DNA of 64,000 nt from a virus, in IMG/VR virus record IMGVR_UViG_3300001450_000023, positions 1 to 64,000 of that record; one strand, written 5' to 3'. Shown piece by piece: positions 9,997 to 18,807 of this stretch. The notes under the pieces were generated by a model, which had not been told where the DNA came from, did no database searches, and saw only the letters and a program-made list of their open reading frames with translations. Every line of letters begins with the position of its first letter. Positions within the stretch are counted from its first letter, which is position 1. Position numbers and translations under genes: made by a program.

Positions 9997-10428
9997 ATGC
10001 AAAAACAAATCACAGTAAGCCAGATTCTAGAAGATCTAGAGAATGGTATGACAAGAACTCCTTCTGATAAAAGATATAACTCAGAAGTAGGAAGCATTAT
10101 GGAAAAGTATAACCTTACAAAGTTTGAGGTTATATTATTATTTAAGAATGAAAAGTTGAAAGGCAAGAAAACTAAACAGCCCAGACAATTATCATTTGTT
10201 TTAGTAGATGATACAGAAACTACAAATAATGTAGTTGAAGAACCTTCTCCTGAAATTATTGTAGCAGTAAACTCAATGACAGGACAAGAAATTCAAGATG
10301 TTTTAGAAGATTCAAATGTAGAACAACCTGTAGAAGAAACAACTAATGATGTATCTTTTACTCTTGTAGAAGAAACAGAAGAAGCAGAAGTTGTTGAAGA
10401 AGAAAATAATGACCAATTAGGTTGGTAA
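9997..10428 (+). CDS. Hypothetical protein with acidic tail
   Basis: This 143-residue protein has a basic, probably helical N-terminal domain (residues 1-60) and a long Glu/Val/Thr-rich acidic tail ending in DNDQ-type residues and GW. The layout (small folded domain plus disordered acidic tail) is common in phage DNA-associated proteins but does not identify a family. It starts at a TATTATG context and is followed by a terminator at 10440, so it ends a transcription unit. Confidence 0.65.
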   Translation: MQKQITVSQILEDLENGMTRTPSDKRYNSEVGSIMEKYNLTKFEVILLFKNEKLKGKKTKQPRQLSFVLVDDTETTNNVVEEPSPEIIVAVNSMTGQEIQDVLEDSNVEQPVEETTNDVSFTLVEETEEAEVVEEENNDQLGW

Positions 10429-11266: not shown

Positions 11267-12268
11267 ATGTTATATGGAGGATTAAATGGTCTAATATCAC
11301 TAACAAAGAATGAAATATTAAAGAGGATATCTCAGCAAGAGATATTCTCTATTTTGTTTGGTGATATAGATTACAAAAGTAGATATGTAAATCCTATTAG
11401 GAATGATGAAAAGGCAGGATGTTTTTTTTCATGGCATAATGGAATATTATGGTTTTCTGATTTTGCAGACATTAAAGTTAATAGGGATTGCTTTGAGTTA
11501 CTCAAAGATGCTTATAATTTAAATTTTTATGAAACTCTACAATATATAGATGAATATTTTGGATTAGGAATACAAAATGGTAATCCAATAAAACCTAAAA
11601 TTGTAGATAAGATAGTAGTAAAAAAATCTACTAAAAGTAAAACCCTTATAACATATCAAAAAAGAACTTTTGATAGACATCACAAAAAGTACTGGTCTAA
11701 TTATGAAATTACTCAAGAGCAATTACTACAAGACCAAGTATTCCCTACAGTTTATTTTAAAATTCATTCTAGAGCAAAAGATAAATGGGTAACCATAAGA
11801 CCTTTTGCTAATGAAGTAACTTTTACTATAGACCAATGGGGAGGTGATGCTATTAAAATATGCAGAGCATTACACAAAGGAGATATGAAATGGATTACAA
11901 ACTGTACAAAGAATCATATAGGTATTGATAATGGTTTTCAAGGTGAAAATTTAATTATAACTAAATCTTATAAAGATTGGAGAGTTTTAAAAAATCAAAA
12001 TCTATCTGCAATATGGCTACAAAATGAGGGAATGTTTCCTAAACAGGAATTATTAGAATCATTGTGTATGACATATAATAATATATATGTATGGTTTGAT
12101 AATGATGATCCAGGAATTAAAGCAGGAAAAAAGTTAAAAGAAATAATATCTTCTTTTCATGACAATGTAGAACACATTTATTTACCTGATAAAAAGGTTA
12201 AAGATCCTGCTGAGTGTATATTTAAAAATAAAAAACTATTTTACAATTTTATAAAATTATTATTATGA
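11267..12268 (+). CDS. DNA primase, DnaG/Toprim type
   Basis: This 333-residue protein has a Toprim-like C-terminal half: ITKSYKDW at 231-238 in the position of the first Toprim motif and FDNDDPG (277-283) as the DxD metal motif, followed by GKKL. The N-terminal part (about 20-100) resembles the phage primase region that precedes the RNA polymerase domain; I see no classic Cys4 zinc finger. The role is synthesis of primers on the lagging strand with the DnaB-like helicase. Its stop overlaps the next start (12265) by four bases. Confidence 0.75.
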   Translation: MLYGGLNGLISLTKNEILKRISQQEIFSILFGDIDYKSRYVNPIRNDEKAGCFFSWHNGILWFSDFADIKVNRDCFELLKDAYNLNFYETLQYIDEYFGLGIQNGNPIKPKIVDKIVVKKSTKSKTLITYQKRTFDRHHKKYWSNYEITQEQLLQDQVFPTVYFKIHSRAKDKWVTIRPFANEVTFTIDQWGGDAIKICRALHKGDMKWITNCTKNHIGIDNGFQGENLIITKSYKDWRVLKNQNLSAIWLQNEGMFPKQELLESLCMTYNNIYVWFDNDDPGIKAGKKLKEIISSFHDNVEHIYLPDKKVKDPAECIFKNKKLFYNFIKLLL

Positions 12269-12891
12269 CAACTAGAAAAGTTAGAATTTTTTCAACAAAA
12301 GTTAAAGCTCAAATAGATACTGATGTAACTAACTGGGGAGATCTAAAAAATATTTTAAGAGACAGACAAATTCCATATAGTGGAATGACTGCAGCTCTAA
12401 GTGGTTCTAATTTATCATTAGAATCTAATGCTGCTCAATTACCTAATACAGATTTTGTTTTGTATCTAATGCCACAGAAAACTAAAAGTGGTATCAATGT
12501 AGAAGCATTTTCTTATATGGATTTAAGACAAACAATTCAAAGCATTATAGAAACTACAGGAGATGTAGCTAAGAATTTTTTTAATGATGAATTGAATTAC
12601 ACTAGAAAAAATGCATCTCAATTAAGAGTTTTATTGCAAGAATGGAATAAACAAGTTCCTGTAGCAAGTCAAGAAAATGTTGAGTTGACAAACCTTATTG
12701 CAAATTTAAAATCTTTAGAAACCAAACATCAACATTTAGTTGATCAAGCAATAGTATTACTCGAAAGAGTAATGCATGCTTGGGATGATGAAGAAGAAAT
12801 AGAAGCAGAATTTGAAAAATTAAATTCTGAATTTAATCCACCTGAATGTGAAGATTTTCGTGAAGAAGCATCTTCAGAAGATTATTTTTAA
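12265..12891 (+). CDS. Ubiquitin-like (beta-grasp) protein with helical acidic extension
   Basis: Residues 1-75 read as a beta-grasp ubiquitin-like fold: a beta-hairpin (3-18), an alpha-helix (22-33), further strands, and a last strand DFVLYLMPQ followed by KTKSG. The remainder (80-208) is a helical segment and an acidic tail, and there is no C-terminal Gly-Gly. In the PRTRC plasmid system a small ubiquitin-like protein is encoded beside a ThiF-like E1 and a JAB protein, both of which lie downstream here. I infer a phage ubiquitin-like component, either conjugated after processing or acting as a scaffold. It overlaps the primase gene by four bases and is followed by a terminator-like hairpin. 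Confidence 0.6.
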   Translation: MTTRKVRIFSTKVKAQIDTDVTNWGDLKNILRDRQIPYSGMTAALSGSNLSLESNAAQLPNTDFVLYLMPQKTKSGINVEAFSYMDLRQTIQSIIETTGDVAKNFFNDELNYTRKNASQLRVLLQEWNKQVPVASQENVELTNLIANLKSLETKHQHLVDQAIVLLERVMHAWDDEEEIEAEFEKLNSEFNPPECEDFREEASSEDYF

Positions 12892-12893
12892 AC

Positions 12894-12917
12894 AAAGGCT
12901 CTTAATTGAGCCTTTTT
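12894..12917 (+). terminator. Terminator-like hairpin inside the ubiquitin-like gene set
   Basis: A perfect 8-bp stem, AAAGGCTC (12894-12901) with GAGCCTTT (12908-12915), has a 6-base loop and ends in five T. It may attenuate expression between the ubiquitin-like gene and the next gene. Confidence 0.7.
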
Positions 12918-12929
12918 AAATTTTATATT

Positions 12930-14129
12930 ATGACAGAAGAATTTGTTAAAGATATACTTGAACTTAAAAGACAAGAGTTTGAGAAACAAGACATGTTAAG
13001 TAAAAATAATTATTCACCACCAATTTATGAAGTAATTAGTAAAAAATATCATTCTTCTTTGTCAAATATAATAGAAGTATTTGATGAAGTATTTGGTAGA
13101 GAATATTGGGATATGCAAGTAGAACCTAGAGCTTATCATAATTTAGGTGGTAATAGTGTCTATAACAAAGAATTAAATGTAGTTGTCCGTTTTCCTGAAT
13201 TAACAGTAACTAATGAAAATGAAAGATCTATTTTATTAGAAAATTTCTTTTTAAGATTAGTTTTTAATGGTAGAAGAACATATAATTTAGAAACTTCAGA
13301 TTATACATATTTCTTTGATATGAGAGCAAATCTAGAAGGTAAATTAAATACTCCTAGTGCTCAACAATTATATAAAGATTATCACCATAGCCATATTCAT
13401 AGTAGTGCTGATAGAATAAATTTTCAATCATTTTGTACAGGTAGAAATTTCTTTTCAGACCTTTATAGAGGATATAATAATGACCCTTGTAAAGAAAATT
13501 TATTCATGTTAGCTAAATATATGATTAATATGGCTAGTACAGAATCACTAGCTGGTGTTCCTTATATAAAGATGGACACAGTATTATTTACTGACCATAG
13601 TAGAACTCTTGATGAATCAGTATTTCATAATTTAAATCAATATGTAAAATATTTGAAAATAAAACCTGTTGATTGGACATTTAAAAATGGTTTTTTAAGC
13701 ATTGTAGATAATGAAAAGTTTGAAAGAAATCTATATGAATTAGTTATGAACTCAATAGATGAATTAAACATGGAAGAAACTAATACTACTTGGTTAATTA
13801 ATAATATTAAATGTAGAAAAGACAATTTAGGTAACTATTATTCAATAAGACAAGATTTTGATAATGATTACATACAAACTTATATAAGAGATCAGAATAC
13901 AAATAATACTTTTTATTTTAAAGGCAGTAAGTTTCCAATCTCTTTGAGTAAAGAAACATTTATTAATGAAGATAATTTTTATTTAAATCAAAAAATTAAA
14001 AAGCATGCAAAACAATATATTGAAAGACAAATTAATGAAAAAAAGCTTACCTCTTATTTCAAATCAAGAAGTAATAGAAGTAAGATTGAACAAGACAATA
14101 ATGTCAAAAATAAAATACTTGTGCAATAA
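12930..14129 (+). CDS. Candidate E2-like (UBC/RWD-like) protein
   Basis: About 399 residues from ATG 12930 (TATTATG context); a TTG eight codons upstream falls inside the terminator hairpin. The core at 83-110 (VVVRFPELTVTN, then a hydrophobic helix) is followed by HHSHIHS (152-158) and FCTG with C169. A His-rich motif followed by a single conserved-looking Cys-x-Gly is the pattern described for divergent prokaryotic E2-like proteins, and the partners on both sides are E1/Ubl/JAB genes. Assignment as an E2 rests on this pattern and on context; a structural prediction is needed. The gene overlaps the JAB frame by about 95 bases. Confidence 0.5.
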   Translation: MTEEFVKDILELKRQEFEKQDMLSKNNYSPPIYEVISKKYHSSLSNIIEVFDEVFGREYWDMQVEPRAYHNLGGNSVYNKELNVVVRFPELTVTNENERSILLENFFLRLVFNGRRTYNLETSDYTYFFDMRANLEGKLNTPSAQQLYKDYHHSHIHSSADRINFQSFCTGRNFFSDLYRGYNNDPCKENLFMLAKYMINMASTESLAGVPYIKMDTVLFTDHSRTLDESVFHNLNQYVKYLKIKPVDWTFKNGFLSIVDNEKFERNLYELVMNSIDELNMEETNTTWLINNIKCRKDNLGNYYSIRQDFDNDYIQTYIRDQNTNNTFYFKGSKFPISLSKETFINEDNFYLNQKIKKHAKQYIERQINEKKLTSYFKSRSNRSKIEQDNNVKNKILVQ

Positions 14130-15027
14130 AATTTCACAGGTTGAATGGTCAGGAGTATTATTTTACTCCTTGAAAGGCAATATAAAAAATCCTTCTAAGA
14201 TGGTTTGTGTAATAGAAGATATTCTACCTATGGATATGGGTTCAGCAGCATATACTGAATACTCATTTGATGATAGAGTAGTTACTTTTTTGCAAGAAGA
14301 AGAGGAGAGATTTGATTGGCATATAGGTCACATACATTCTCACAATAATATGAAAACATTTTTTTCAGGAACTGATATGTCAGAATTAAATGACAATTCT
14401 GAAAATCACAATTTCTATTTATCTCTTATTGTGAATAATGCAATGGATCTTACAGCTAAGGTAGCTCAAAGAATCAAGTTAAAAGATATTTCATTTCTTG
14501 CTAATGATAGAGATGGCAATACATATTCTAAGAAACTAGCTAATGATAAAGAAGTTCTTATGATATATGATTGTAACATTAAAATCCCTAAAAGTGAATT
14601 GTTAGAAAACTCTTTCATAAGATCTGTTGATAAAATAATCAAAGATAATGAAGAGGCTAACAAGAAAATGAAATCTAATAATAATTTAGCATGGGATTTT
14701 AATGAAAATGTAGATTTAGAATTTGATTTTACAGATGATATAGAGATTGAGAATGCACTTGTGTATTGCTTAAGAAAAGGAGTAACTTTTAGAGATGATA
14801 CATTAGAAGATTGTCTTGATGACATTTTTGAATTTAAAAACTGGGATGATTATGATGATATTGAATATTATTTGAAAAGATATTGTTTGAAAACAAGCAA
14901 TCTTTATAATTCAACTGATTATGATAAATTGTTAAATCAAATGATTTATAAATTAAATGAATTTGTAATTGTATATCCAGAAATTAAAAACATTTTAAAA
15001 CATTTTAAACATGAGTCAGAGATTTGA
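14035..15027 (+). CDS. JAB/MPN (JAMM) metalloprotease, candidate deubiquitinase-like peptidase
   Basis: Complete JAMM signature: E37 in VEWSG, then H101-S-H103, seven residues, S111, two residues, D114 (HxH-x7-S-x2-D). JAMM proteins are zinc isopeptidases that remove or process ubiquitin-like modifiers. The JAB domain spans about 10-150; the C-terminal 180 residues are acidic and of unknown fold. In-frame ATGs exist at 14005, 14035 and 14101. The last would cut the first strand of the domain, so I prefer 14035 despite a 95-base overlap with the upstream gene. It overlaps the E1-like gene by 17 bases. All catalytic residues are present, so activity is expected. Confidence 0.8.
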   Translation: MKKSLPLISNQEVIEVRLNKTIMSKIKYLCNKISQVEWSGVLFYSLKGNIKNPSKMVCVIEDILPMDMGSAAYTEYSFDDRVVTFLQEEEERFDWHIGHIHSHNNMKTFFSGTDMSELNDNSENHNFYLSLIVNNAMDLTAKVAQRIKLKDISFLANDRDGNTYSKKLANDKEVLMIYDCNIKIPKSELLENSFIRSVDKIIKDNEEANKKMKSNNNLAWDFNENVDLEFDFTDDIEIENALVYCLRKGVTFRDDTLEDCLDDIFEFKNWDDYDDIEYYLKRYCLKTSNLYNSTDYDKLLNQMIYKLNEFVIVYPEIKNILKHFKHESEI

Positions 15028-15706
15028 TAGATTTAAAGATGCAGAATGGTTTGGTGATAGAACTGTTCTTATAGGTGGGTGTGGTGGAATAGGCTCTTGG
15101 TTGAGTCTATTTCTATCTAGGGCAGGATTTACTCAAGTTATATATGATGATGACAAAGTAGAAGAACATAATATTGGTGGACAACTGTATGGTATCAAAA
15201 ATGTTGGTAAAACAAAAGTAGATTCTATGGTTGAAATTATTCATCAGTTTACTGGAGATAATAAAGTGCATGTGTTTTGTGAGAGAATGGATAAAACATC
15301 TCCTACTAATAATTATGTATTTTCTGCTTTTGATAATATGAAAGCTAGAAAAGAGTTATTTCACAACTGGCTTGAGTCACATGGTAAGAGTAATGATGCT
15401 ATATTTATAGATGGTAGATTAGCAGCAGAAAGTTTGCAAGTATATACTGTAAAAGGAAATGATTCTGATTCTATTAAAAATTATGGAGAATCTCTTTTTG
15501 ATGATTCTGAAGTAGAAGAAGAACCATGTACTTTGAAGCAAACTACTCATATGGCTGCAATGATAGCATCTATAATGACAGGTTTTTTTACAAATTATAT
15601 TGTTAATGTGAATGAAAAGGAAGAAGTTAGACAAGTACCTAACTTTCATTCTTATTATTTACCAAACCATTATTACAATGCAATCAATAGCACAAATTTT
15701 AAGTAA
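15011..15706 (+). CDS. ThiF/E1-like adenylating enzyme
   Basis: A 231-residue Rossmann protein with a nucleotide-binding loop GGCGGIG (22-28), acidic D46-D48, and DDKVEEHNIGGQ (47-58), the counterpart of the ThiF/E1 motif DxDxVxxxNLxRQ. The usual Arg of the RQ pair is Gly here. A candidate catalytic Cys is C173 in EPCTLKQT. E1-like enzymes adenylate the C-terminus of a ubiquitin-like protein. The length fits a minimal one-domain enzyme like ThiF or the PRTRC ThiF protein. It is translationally coupled to the JAB gene and followed by an overlapping gene of unknown function. Confidence 0.8.
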   Translation: MSQRFDRFKDAEWFGDRTVLIGGCGGIGSWLSLFLSRAGFTQVIYDDDKVEEHNIGGQLYGIKNVGKTKVDSMVEIIHQFTGDNKVHVFCERMDKTSPTNNYVFSAFDNMKARKELFHNWLESHGKSNDAIFIDGRLAAESLQVYTVKGNDSDSIKNYGESLFDDSEVEEEPCTLKQTTHMAAMIASIMTGFFTNYIVNVNEKEEVRQVPNFHSYYLPNHYYNAINSTNFK

Positions 15707-16277
15707 TTTTGTAGAACCAAGATACTATGGAGATATATATAGCATTTCAAGAGTAAATATTTATGGATGTTCTTTTACTTCCAAGTTTATTCCTGTATTT
15801 GCAATGTTTAAAAGTTCAGGTAGTTTATTCTTGGAAGGTAAAGAAATTATTTATCATCATTTATATGCAGATAACAGAGAACCTCTTAAAAAGTCTTACA
15901 ATATTATGTATAGTACTTTTTGTTATGGTATGAAAGCTAAATCATATAGAAATAAAGATGGTATAATTTTAATTAGAAAAGGTCTTGTTACAGATGAAAA
16001 TTTTAATATTAAGATGGTTTTATGTTTTAAAGATTTTAAAAACATAGACAAGAATAATGTAACTATTAAAGACTTTATCTTAATTGTTAACAAACAGTAT
16101 TTTAATTCTTTATTGTTTAAAAATTTTAATAAAAAAAACTGTTTTGAAGATATAGATATGTTGTTAACAGATAATGTAGAGGAGTATTGTTTTAAATCTC
16201 CTAAAATTATTCCTAAATTTAAAGATATTGCTATAATGCAAGAATATTTAAATGATGTAAATAAATTATTATTATGA
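15678..16277 (+). CDS. Hypothetical protein linked to the ubiquitin-like gene set
   Basis: About 199 residues from ATG 15678; an in-frame ATG at 15612 would overlap the E1-like gene by 95 bases. No domain recognised. The sequence alternates beta-prone stretches and Lys/Asn-rich segments, with scattered Cys (YGCSFTS, STFCYG, KKNCFED, EEYCFKS). It is embedded between the E1-like and nuclease genes with overlaps on both sides (29 and 4 bases), so it may belong to the same functional unit. Confidence 0.6.
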   Translation: MQSIAQILSNFVEPRYYGDIYSISRVNIYGCSFTSKFIPVFAMFKSSGSLFLEGKEIIYHHLYADNREPLKKSYNIMYSTFCYGMKAKSYRNKDGIILIRKGLVTDENFNIKMVLCFKDFKNIDKNNVTIKDFILIVNKQYFNSLLFKNFNKKNCFEDIDMLLTDNVEEYCFKSPKIIPKFKDIAIMQEYLNDVNKLLL

Positions 16278-16690
16278 CAGAAAAGAAAAAGAAGAAGAAT
16301 TTAGGAAAGATTAACAGAAGAAAAGGGCATAATGCTGAAAGGCATTATGCTAATTGGTTTAAACAGTTAGGTTATAAATTATGCCAAACTTCTAGATATG
16401 GAAGTAGGTTATATGATGATTGTGGAATAGATTTAATAAATATTCCATTTCTAGTACAAGTGAAAGCAGGTAAGCAAAAAAATTTAAATATTATATCTGA
16501 ATTAAAGAATATAAAAGAAAAAGTTGCAGAAAACTTTCCAAAAGAATCTAGAGAACAAGAATTACCTAAAATGTTAATCCACAGAAAGGATGTAGGCAGA
16601 GGTAGGAAGAGAACTTCTTATGATGACATTATTACAATGACTGCTGAAGATTTTAAAATATTAATTAAATTAATTTCCAATGATAGTTAG
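16274..16690 (+). CDS. PD-(D/E)XK nuclease, Holliday-junction-resolvase-like
   Basis: This 138-residue protein starts with a Lys-rich tract, then RRKGHNAERHYAN with E22, GIDL with D53, and VQVKAG with Q62 and K64. The E...D...(Q/E)xK spacing is that of small PD-(D/E)XK nucleases such as archaeal Hjc-type resolvases. It probably cleaves branched DNA during recombination-dependent replication. It is coupled to the preceding gene by a four-base overlap and to the next nuclease by eleven bases. Confidence 0.72.
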   Translation: MTEKKKKKNLGKINRRKGHNAERHYANWFKQLGYKLCQTSRYGSRLYDDCGIDLINIPFLVQVKAGKQKNLNIISELKNIKEKVAENFPKESREQELPKMLIHRKDVGRGRKRTSYDDIITMTAEDFKILIKLISNDS

Positions 16691-17774
16691 AACTTCAAGA
16701 AAAATAGAAATGGATTACAGGCTTGATGAGGCTGTATCTCAGTCTAAGTTAAAATATCTTTTAAGAGGTGTTTCAATATATAATACTGTTGAAGAAGATG
16801 ATTCTGATGAATACTATTCTGAGAAAGCACATTTTATTATAGGATCTGCAGTAGATACTTTGATAACTATGGGTGAAGATACATTCAAAAAAGAATATTA
16901 TATTTCTCAACTTGAAAAAAAGCCAGGTAAAACAATAATGTCAATTATTGTAGAAACATTTGATTTTCAGATGGCAGCTTCTCATGGTAATTTAGATTAT
17001 GAATCTTTTACTTCTGACAGAGTAAAAAGATCTATCATGATGGCTGTAAATAATCATCAATGGCAAAAAAGATGGAATGATGATACTAGGTATAATAAAA
17101 TTATATCTTTAGGGCAAGAATATTGGGATTCTCTAATAGATGCACAGGGTAAAAAAGTTTTAAGCAATGAACAGTATATAACTGTTATTCATGTGTACCA
17201 GTCATTAATGGCTAGTCCATTTACTGCTCACTATTTTGAAGATGCAGAACATTTAGAGTTGTATTTCCAGTTACCAGTATATTTTCAATATAATGGTGTA
17301 AGCTGTAAAGGTTTATTAGATCTTGTTATTGTAGATCATGCTAAGGGGAAGATATATCCTATAGATATTAAAACTATGGGAGATTATACTATTAGATTCC
17401 CTTATTCTTTTTATAAAAGAAGGTATGATTTTCAAGCAGCATTTTATACACAAGGATTGATGAATTCTAATTTCAACAAATGGTGTTATGACATTGAAAA
17501 CTTTAAGTTTATAGTAGAATCTACTATAAATCCAGGCACTCCTTTAGTGTTTACTTGTACTCATGAATTACTTCTGAAGAAAGGTAAATTTGGAATTCCT
17601 GATAAAAGAGTTGGAGATGTTGTAATAAGAGGTTGTAGAGGATTTCATCAAGCTATTGAAATATACAAGTGGCATTTGAAAAATGGTTTTGAATTAGATA
17701 GAATAGTTTCTATTAATGAAGGTAACTTATTATTGGGCATAGAAGGAATAATAGATGAAAATACAAGTAAATAA
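16680..17774 (+). CDS. PD-(D/E)XK exonuclease, RecE/RecB-like
   Basis: A 364-residue protein with a nuclease core at about 190-260: CKGLLDLVIVD with D214, PIDIKT with D229 and K231, and DFQAAFYTQGL with Q252. This D...DxK...Q-x3-Y order matches the RecB/RecE/YqaJ branch of PD-(D/E)XK enzymes, which resect DNA ends. An N-terminal helical domain (1-180) precedes it. With the Sak4-like ATPase it could form a phage recombination pair. Its stop overlaps the next start. Confidence 0.78.
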   Translation: MIVRTSRKIEMDYRLDEAVSQSKLKYLLRGVSIYNTVEEDDSDEYYSEKAHFIIGSAVDTLITMGEDTFKKEYYISQLEKKPGKTIMSIIVETFDFQMAASHGNLDYESFTSDRVKRSIMMAVNNHQWQKRWNDDTRYNKIISLGQEYWDSLIDAQGKKVLSNEQYITVIHVYQSLMASPFTAHYFEDAEHLELYFQLPVYFQYNGVSCKGLLDLVIVDHAKGKIYPIDIKTMGDYTIRFPYSFYKRRYDFQAAFYTQGLMNSNFNKWCYDIENFKFIVESTINPGTPLVFTCTHELLLKKGKFGIPDKRVGDVVIRGCRGFHQAIEIYKWHLKNGFELDRIVSINEGNLLLGIEGIIDENTSK

Positions 17775-18357: not shown

Positions 18358-18807
18358 ATGAAAGCTATTAATAAAAGTACATGTTTAAAACAAGAAATAA
18401 AAATTTCTGTAGATAAATTTGATAATGAAAATAATATTATCAATTCTTCAGAAGATATTTGTGATTATTTTAGAAATATCATTCCTGTAGATATTAATAC
18501 ACAGGAATGTTTTATTATTATTTATTTAGATAAGAAAAGTGATGTTATAGGTTATAATGTAAATTCAATAGGTGGAATTGATCAATCAATTGTTGATGTA
18601 AGATTAATTTTTGCTGTTGCATTAAAATGTTTAGCAAGTGCTATAATATGTATTCACAATCATCCATCAGGTAATTTAAAACCTAGTAAAAGTGATGTTC
18701 AAGTAGAAAAACAAATTAAGAAAATTGCTGATTATCATAGCATTTCTTGTCTTGATTTTTTAATTGTAACAGAAAATGGGGATTACTCTTTTGAAGCAAA
18801 TAAATAA
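18358..18807 (+). CDS. RadC-like JAB-domain protein
   Basis: A 149-residue protein with the RadC motif H100-N-H102-PSG, then P109-S110 and D113, plus an upstream Glu (E50). This is the JAB/MPN fold of RadC (once thought a DNA repair protein; function still unsettled). The N-terminal helix-hairpin-helix region of bacterial RadC is absent. It is the second JAMM-type protein in the same gene block and is distinct from the one at 14035. It starts with an AATTATG context after the 18307 hairpin. Confidence 0.82.
   Translation: MKAINKSTCLKQEIKISVDKFDNENNIINSSEDICDYFRNIIPVDINTQECFIIIYLDKKSDVIGYNVNSIGGIDQSIVDVRLIFAVALKCLASAIICIHNHPSGNLKPSKSDVQVEKQIKKIADYHSISCLDFLIVTENGDYSFEANK

Follow-up and report, generated by a model that had tools for sequence, protein, structure and literature searches.

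The IMG/VR virus record IMGVR_UViG_3300001450_000023 is 79,789 bases long, and the 64-kb stretch of it analysed here (the window) carries five genes on the + strand, nearly all overlapping, between a Toprim primase gene (11267-12268) and nuclease-like genes (16274-17774). The first four encode a putative ubiquitin-like protein (Ubl) precursor, an E2-fold candidate, a JAMM metallopeptidase and an E1-like activating enzyme (Table 1). An earlier reading of the letters of this DNA, hereafter the original prediction, had placed such a set here in consecutive overlapping genes inside the replication module, between primase and recombination nucleases. All of its coordinates were confirmed, and the neighbouring genes fit that location, with the same order in named phages. 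When the five proteins were scanned singly against Pfam, NCBIfam and PADLOC, gene 4 was recognised (ThiF) and gene 3 weakly so (JAB); for genes 1, 2 and 5, neither these databases nor PHROGs returned a function.

Table 1. Coordinates, in the window, of the ubiquitin-like gene set and of a small protein encoded upstream of it.
Feature	Position	Strand	Remarks
Gene 1, whole	12265-12891	+	208 amino acids
Gene 1, Ubl domain	12265-12492	+	Residues 1-76; the last three are Lys-Ser-Gly (codons 12484-12492), with Gly76 invariant
Gene 1, C-terminal helical extension	12493-12891	+	No recognised family; cleavage after Gly76 would free the extension
Gene 2, candidate E2 (UBC/UEV fold)	12930-14129	+	Alternative TTG start at 12906; Tyr151-x-His153-Ser154-His155 (His155 codon 13392-13394); Cys169-Thr-Gly171 (Cys codon 13434-13436)
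Gene 3, JAMM/MPN+ metallopeptidase	14005-15027	+	E47 (14143), H111-S-H113 (14335-14343), S121 (14365), D124 (14374)
Gene 4, E1-like (ThiF/UBA5-type) activating enzyme	15011-15706	+	Candidate catalytic Cys173 (15527-15529); G23xGGIGS, D46/D48, N54, Q58, K69, D108, R113; Gly57 where NxxRQ has arginine
Gene 5, small protein of low conservation, directly 3' of the E1 gene	15678-16277	+	ATG at 15678
Upstream small protein	9997-10428	+	Acidic motif resembling SUMO-interacting motifs: FVLVDDTE (10195-10218), FTLVEETE (10357-10380)

The gene 3 product bears the complete JAMM motif (E plus HxH-x7-S-x2-D) that had been reported for it, and each of its catalytic residues, E47, H111, H113, S121 and D124, is invariant in 56/56 relatives. 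It matches the PADLOC JAB model (6.3e-8), and the Prok-JAB model matches 50 of the 56 relatives (best 4.4e-6); a profile search of the PDB with the JAMM protein gave nothing at E 0.01. The window encodes another JAB-fold protein ~3 kb downstream (18358-18807), which belongs to the RadC type (Pfam 1.2e-33) and is unrelated to the gene 3 product. The assignment of gene 4 as a ThiF/E1 enzyme also held, as shown by its matches to Pfam ThiF (E 1.5e-19), to the E1 part of the PADLOC E1-E2 models (1.6e-11) and, as the best hit of a PDB profile search, to UBA5 (4.3e-13). The GxGGxGS loop, both aspartates of the DxD motif, the Asn, the Lys, the second Asp and Cys173 are conserved in 52/52 E1s, save for occasional exceptions at G26 and D46. 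Among the relatives, group I introns were found inside the E1 gene (L076 6715-6995) and the JAMM gene (L087 5151-5363), and in Flavobacterium phage Fpv1 the JAMM gene is interrupted, close to its HxH motif, by a LAGLIDADG endonuclease gene (L095 3166-3915).

A PDB profile search with gene 1 identified no relative, and its fold was resolved only by structure prediction. In the AlphaFold2 model (predicted local distance difference test score, pLDDT, 88), a beta-beta-alpha-beta-beta arrangement extends across residues 1-72, and residues 1-76 were superposed by VIA-align on NEDD8 (3gzn_I; Z 8.4, root-mean-square deviation (rmsd) 2.2, 72 residues aligned) and on ubiquitin (1ubq; Z 8.1, rmsd 2.8, 69 aligned). 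The superposition reaches residue 75/76, paired with ubiquitin residues 75-76. Gly76 is the sole invariant column of the gene 1 alignment (62/62), S75 and K74 being conserved in 59/62 proteins each, and in a second set of loci, collected with the JAMM protein as seed, 61/61 gene 1 proteins have a K[S/A/G]G tail. What follows the glycine is variable: the extension measures between a single residue (...KSGE*) and over 200, and the shortest relatives, devoid of the helical part, end 1-5 residues past the glycine. Every member has at least one residue there and none stops at the glycine itself, which suggests that processing is obligatory, a task to be expected of the JAMM protein. The boundary between the Ubl and helical parts is, in cr106_1, the exact site of an HNH endonuclease gene (L007 1502-2017), so that the Ubl is a free 92-amino-acid protein ending KIKSGKF and the helical remainder restarts as its own open reading frame (ORF). 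A by-eye likeness of the C-terminal part to helix-loop-helix DNA-binding domains had no support from Pfam, and this part is therefore called merely helical. A scan of IMG/VR with one short Ubl matched only that Ubl itself. On the predicted structure, gene 1 probably encodes a Ubl precursor with a beta-grasp fold and a conserved glycine at the end of the fold, after which it would be cleaved.

For gene 2, a PDB profile search likewise returned no relative, and Foldseek alone gave weak E-values; the fold was clarified by VIA-align. The AlphaFold2 model (pLDDT 84) has a UBC/UEV/RWD fold in its first ~210 residues; a helix is followed by a meander of four strands, by a loop that bears Tyr-x-His-Ser-His and Phe-Cys-Thr-Gly, and by further helices. 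UEV, UBC and RWD proteins predominate among its best VIA-align neighbours (Z 4-6.4), which include TSG101-UEV (Z 6.4, rmsd 3.6, 132 aligned), UBC9 (Z 4.7, rmsd 4.5, 133 aligned), the E2 domain of Cap2 (Z 4.6, rmsd 4.3, 128 aligned) and UFC1 (Z 4.2, rmsd 4.3, 125 aligned). Ser154, His155, Cys169 and Gly171 are invariant in 56/56 relatives, and C169 and H155 sit between the fourth strand and the following helix of the model. The predicted fold and these four invariant residues support a catalytic E2 over an inactive UEV. The original prediction had described the first protein as beta-grasp-like and the second, with its FCTG motif, as a candidate E2; the two models agree with it, gene 1 having the beta-grasp fold, aligned with ubiquitin and NEDD8, and gene 2 the UBC/UEV fold, with the FCTG cysteine present in all 56 relatives.

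A survey of gene order had been proposed with the original prediction. Here, all ORFs of 95 sequences were searched with an iterated profile for every gene. The order Ubl-E2-JAMM-E1 was found in 88/88 sequences not cut by a contig end; some of these 88 loci are near-duplicates, and they encode 77 distinct gene 1 proteins. Five of the 95 sequences have no gene 1 and begin inside gene 2, and the two remaining ones (L012 and L013) are distant E1s in other contexts. In the JAMM-seeded set (80 loci, many of the contigs being common to both sets), gene 2 was present in 80/80 loci and genes 1 and 4 were absent only at contig ends. The four genes thus co-occur in constant order in all complete loci, and this fixed arrangement is not due to chance. 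A homologue of gene 5 occupies the same place in about half of the loci, and its product is possibly an accessory factor. Genes 2 and 3 overlap out of frame by ~125 bases in the window (14005-14129), as they do in FpV4 (125), in crAss001 (62) and in many IMG/VR relatives.

Relatives of gene 4 were found by tblastn in 78 phage records, including those of two Bacteroides phages in culture, the gut phage crAss001 and DAC15, and 29 records of Flavobacterium psychrophilum phages, and in at least 192 IMG/VR stretches. Among named phage records, JAMM is present in 74 and Ubl in 29 Flavobacterium and 45 other records, and Ubl, JAMM and E1 occur in the same groups of records. The order primase - gene 1 - gene 2 - JAMM - E1 - gene 5 was observed in 11 named phages, mostly Steigviridae, followed in most of them by a uracil-DNA glycosylase (UDG) gene and recombination nucleases; in FpV4 the UDG gene lies between the primase gene and gene 1. 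In crAss001, the corresponding products are gp80 (primase), gp79 (gene 1), gp78 (gene 2), gp77 ('metalloprotease domain'), gp76 ('ThiF'), gp75 and gp74 (UDG). The cassette of the window is nearest to those of Fipvunavirus (Flavobacterium phages), then to those of Steigviridae; neither E1 nor JAMM was found in the Suoliviridae and Intestiviridae examined. A search of 84,980 bacterial and archaeal species genomes gave only two strong E1 matches, both on short contigs of metagenome-assembled genomes and one with the whole set, so that the family looks virus-specific. A related ThiF/E1 is encoded by the Xanthomonas jumbo phage PhiXhv-12 (L012 6932-7615), beside an 892-amino-acid protein of no known family, a DNA ligase and a topoisomerase; no Ubl, E2 or JAMM of the cassette type was found in its vicinity, and a 70-amino-acid neighbour considered as a Ubl was discarded since, by eye, it has neither a tail glycine nor any other mark of a Ubl.

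The closest known organisation is that of the plasmid-borne PRTRC (ParB-related, ThiF-related) cassette; the type 6d described by Iyer et al. 2006 (PMC1779556) has the identical set of components. Complete plasmid PRTRC operons run ParB - E - C (Ubl) - middle gene(s) - B (E2) - A (JAMM) - ThiF (E1); the phage set is colinear with them and has in common the order Ubl (C) - E2 (B) - JAMM (A) - E1 (ThiF). In profile-profile comparisons, the phage E1 matched PRTRC ThiF (E 1.5e-17), both Cys regions being aligned, and the phage JAMM matched PRTRC A (E 2.8e-7), with the HSH...FFSxxD core in both. The hhalign values for Ubl/C (E 0.23) and E2/B (E 0.29) were not significant, the best local matches falling on the KTK(S)G tail and the Cys-x-Gly motif: the tail reads KTKG in the PRTRC Ubl and KTKSG in the phage Ubl, and the PRTRC E2 also has C-x-G. 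The comparison with PRTRC drawn in the original prediction is therefore upheld, in operon order and, for E1 and JAMM, at the level of profiles. However, the phage cassette is without the PRTRC ParB, protein E and middle gene, neither a ParB-family gene nor protein E of PRTRC being found among the annotated neighbours of named phage cassettes or the Pfam-scanned neighbours in the window, and the curated NCBIfam cut-offs were missed for PRTRC_A (14.5 bits vs 101.8) and PRTRC_ThiF (40.9 vs 144.75). Since it has neither ParB nor protein E and misses these cut-offs, we describe the phage set as PRTRC-like and do not file it as PRTRC. It also differs in that its Ubl has the form of an extended precursor, its E1 has lost the motif arginine and it resides in a replication module.

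The public records examined label the cassette genes 'hypothetical', 'metalloprotease' or 'thiamine biosynthesis'. The last label, given to gene 4 in many deposited records ('thiamine biosynthesis protein'), is in line with a sulfur-carrier pathway, in which the E1 would adenylate the Ubl for thiocarboxylation (as for ThiS/MoaD/CysO), the JAMM protein would process the carrier and gene 2 would be the acceptor. The E1 is single-domain and ThiF-like, as such a pathway would have it, and JAMM-carrier pairs do exist in sulfur metabolism. However, no sulfurtransferase, cysteine desulfurase or thio-cofactor enzyme is annotated beside the named-phage cassettes, an E2-fold protein with an invariant cysteine is encoded in every complete locus and the overall organisation is closest to PRTRC. 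We consider this explanation improbable.

Bil (BilABCD) resembles the phage set in that Ubl, E1, E2 and JAB/JAMM are encoded in a single operon and its peptidase processes the Ubl (PMC11354881). In contrast, BilA has two Ubl domains in tandem and the gene 1 model one, and Bil is a bacterial defence whereas the Ubl-E2-JAMM-E1 set is carried by phages. Type II CBASS (cyclic oligonucleotide-based antiphage signalling system), with Cap2 (E1-E2) and Cap3 (JAB), has the E1/E2/JAB logic in common with the phage set, and gene 2 resembles the E2 domain of Cap2; however, the phage cassette has no CD-NTase, its E1 and E2 are separate proteins and it encodes a dedicated Ubl. Among the eukaryotic UFM1, NEDD8 and ubiquitin cascades, tagging of this kind being familiar above all from human cells, the phage E1 is nearest to UBA5, the Ubl superposes up to Gly76 and the predicted E2 fold is like those of TSG101-UEV, UBC9 and UFC1, but sequence identity is ~10%, the phage set comes without E3 or proteasome and the tail of its Ubl reads KSG, that of the eukaryotic ones GG. 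The TAPI-TAPK proteins of lambda/T1-type phages combine, according to Iyer et al. 2006 (PMC1779556), a Ubl and a JAB peptidase for tail assembly and share with the set described here a phage-encoded Ubl with a conserved glycine and a C-terminal extension; unlike it, they are without E1 and E2 and sit in the tail module, not in the replication module. A literature search, made mostly outside subscription journals, found no paper connecting crAss-like or Flavobacterium phages with ubiquitin-like conjugation or ThiF, and the cassette genes are not mentioned in the main texts of Yutin 2021 and Shkoporov 2018.

Further evidence comes from Steigviridae that lack the E1 and in which the slot between the primase and UDG genes is differently filled. 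In cr116_1 it is occupied by rIIA/rIIB homologues (L096 9120-13584); E1, E2 and JAMM were not found in the whole genome, and of gene 1 the part after the KSG boundary alone is kept, the Ubl half being gone. The Ubl domain is therefore lost together with E1, E2 and JAMM, whereas the other half of gene 1 is not. In cr108_1 (L097 8277-15002) and Cellulophaga phage phi14:2 (L099 8025-13669), the slot holds an ATP-grasp / COOH-NH2 ligase / glutamine-amidotransferase / amidoligase module. The post-primase slot thus appears to host exchangeable modules for host interaction or protein modification. The rII genes of T4 counter a host exclusion system, and by analogy with this precedent a role in counter-defence or takeover is our best guess. 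Such a slot would also suit a decoy or deconjugase directed against host CBASS Cap2/Cap3 or Bil, with the JAMM protein stripping host conjugates or the Ubl titrating host enzymes and no tagging by the phage itself, all the more as Ubl conjugation serves anti-phage defence (PMC10097602; BilABCD, PMC11354881). A mere decoy or deconjugase, however, would have no need of an E1 or an E2 whose catalytic residues are invariant, and the four genes, together with the Ubl tail, are retained or lost as one; we give this possibility little credence.

We noted a motif resembling SUMO-interacting motifs (SIM), hydrophobic-x-hydrophobic-hydrophobic-Asp-Asp-Thr-Glu (hxhhDDTE), in two unrelated protein families. 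The first site is at or near the C-terminus of long gene 5 proteins (e.g., L033 4163-5314), and the second is in the family of the upstream small protein, after a helix-turn-helix-like segment; the motif or a close variant is present in most of the 66 homologues of the latter. Among 4,553 distinct ORFs the motif occurs 20 times, in these two families only, compared with 0-2 times in shuffles, and it is conserved within otherwise divergent acidic tails. From its sequence, the upstream small protein might, speculatively, be a Ubl-interacting partner.

The gene content and order, the predicted folds, the invariant catalytic residues, the co-occurrence and co-loss of the genes and the relation of E1 and JAMM to PRTRC, all computed here, make it probable in our view that the cassette is a working, phage-borne, PRTRC-like pathway for Ubl conjugation and deconjugation. 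We infer the following order of steps. Gene 1 would yield a Ubl precursor, much as ubiquitin is made as a fusion to ribosomal proteins, and the JAMM protein would cut it after Ser75-Gly76, giving a Ubl with a C-terminal glycine and setting free, in the majority of phages, the small helical part as a protein of its own. The E1 would then adenylate Gly76 and keep the Ubl as a thioester on Cys173, from which it would be relayed to Cys169 of the E2; aided by His155, the E2 would hand it to lysines of target proteins, from which the JAMM protein may also be able to strip it.

Several points weigh against this proposal. The support is computational throughout, and neither an E3 nor a target is visible. 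Ubl family models did not match gene 1 or its relatives taken one by one, nor did E2 family models match gene 2 or its relatives. The E2 fold scores are middling (Z at most 6.4), although in the models this appears to be outweighed by the agreement among structural neighbours; C169 is tentatively placed at the UBC cysteine position from its order along the predicted fold, and the motif is HSH where eukaryotic E2s have HPN. Lastly, the arginine of NxxRQ, present in PRTRC ThiF and UBA5, is replaced by Gly57 in 52/52 E1s. Arg7 is invariant in the phage E1 and, by analogy with MoeB, which has a trans arginine, is a candidate substitute; otherwise adenylation by the phage E1 would be unusual. The missing arginine, and the strong divergence of Ubl and E2 (mean column identity 16-17% in their alignments), could also be taken as signs of a degenerate, non-catalytic scaffold derived from a plasmid-type cassette and retained as a structural or regulatory complex. 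We find this highly improbable, as the catalytic positions are the most conserved ones and the JAMM and E1 genes harbour group I introns and a homing endonuclease gene, the usual mark of conserved, needed sequence.

With respect to function, the location of the conjugation cassette among replication and recombination genes and its exchange for rIIA/rIIB or amidoligase/ATP-grasp modules make a role in takeover or defence resistance likely: the cascade would modify host (or phage) proteins during takeover, or confer resistance to defence. The chances seem to us about even that a widespread phage lineage, comprising crAss001, other Steigviridae, Flavobacterium phages and many metagenomic relatives, runs a self-contained Ubl cascade from its replication region, tagging host or phage proteins, with the tag being read by phage proteins bearing the SIM-like motif. 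Ubl conjugation in bacteria is known as an anti-phage weapon (CBASS, Bil), and a complete set in a common phage lineage suggests that phages use the same chemistry. Likely roles can now be assigned to gp76-gp79 of crAss001, which appear in its record as 'thiamine biosynthesis', 'metalloprotease domain' or hypothetical, and PRTRC, itself little studied, gains a relative amenable to experiment. The genes are present in two phages available in culture, crAss001 and Bacteroides phage DAC15, so that what the virus would tag, and why, can be tested directly. If the cascade operates as proposed, it would represent ubiquitin-like protein tagging operated by a bacterial virus.

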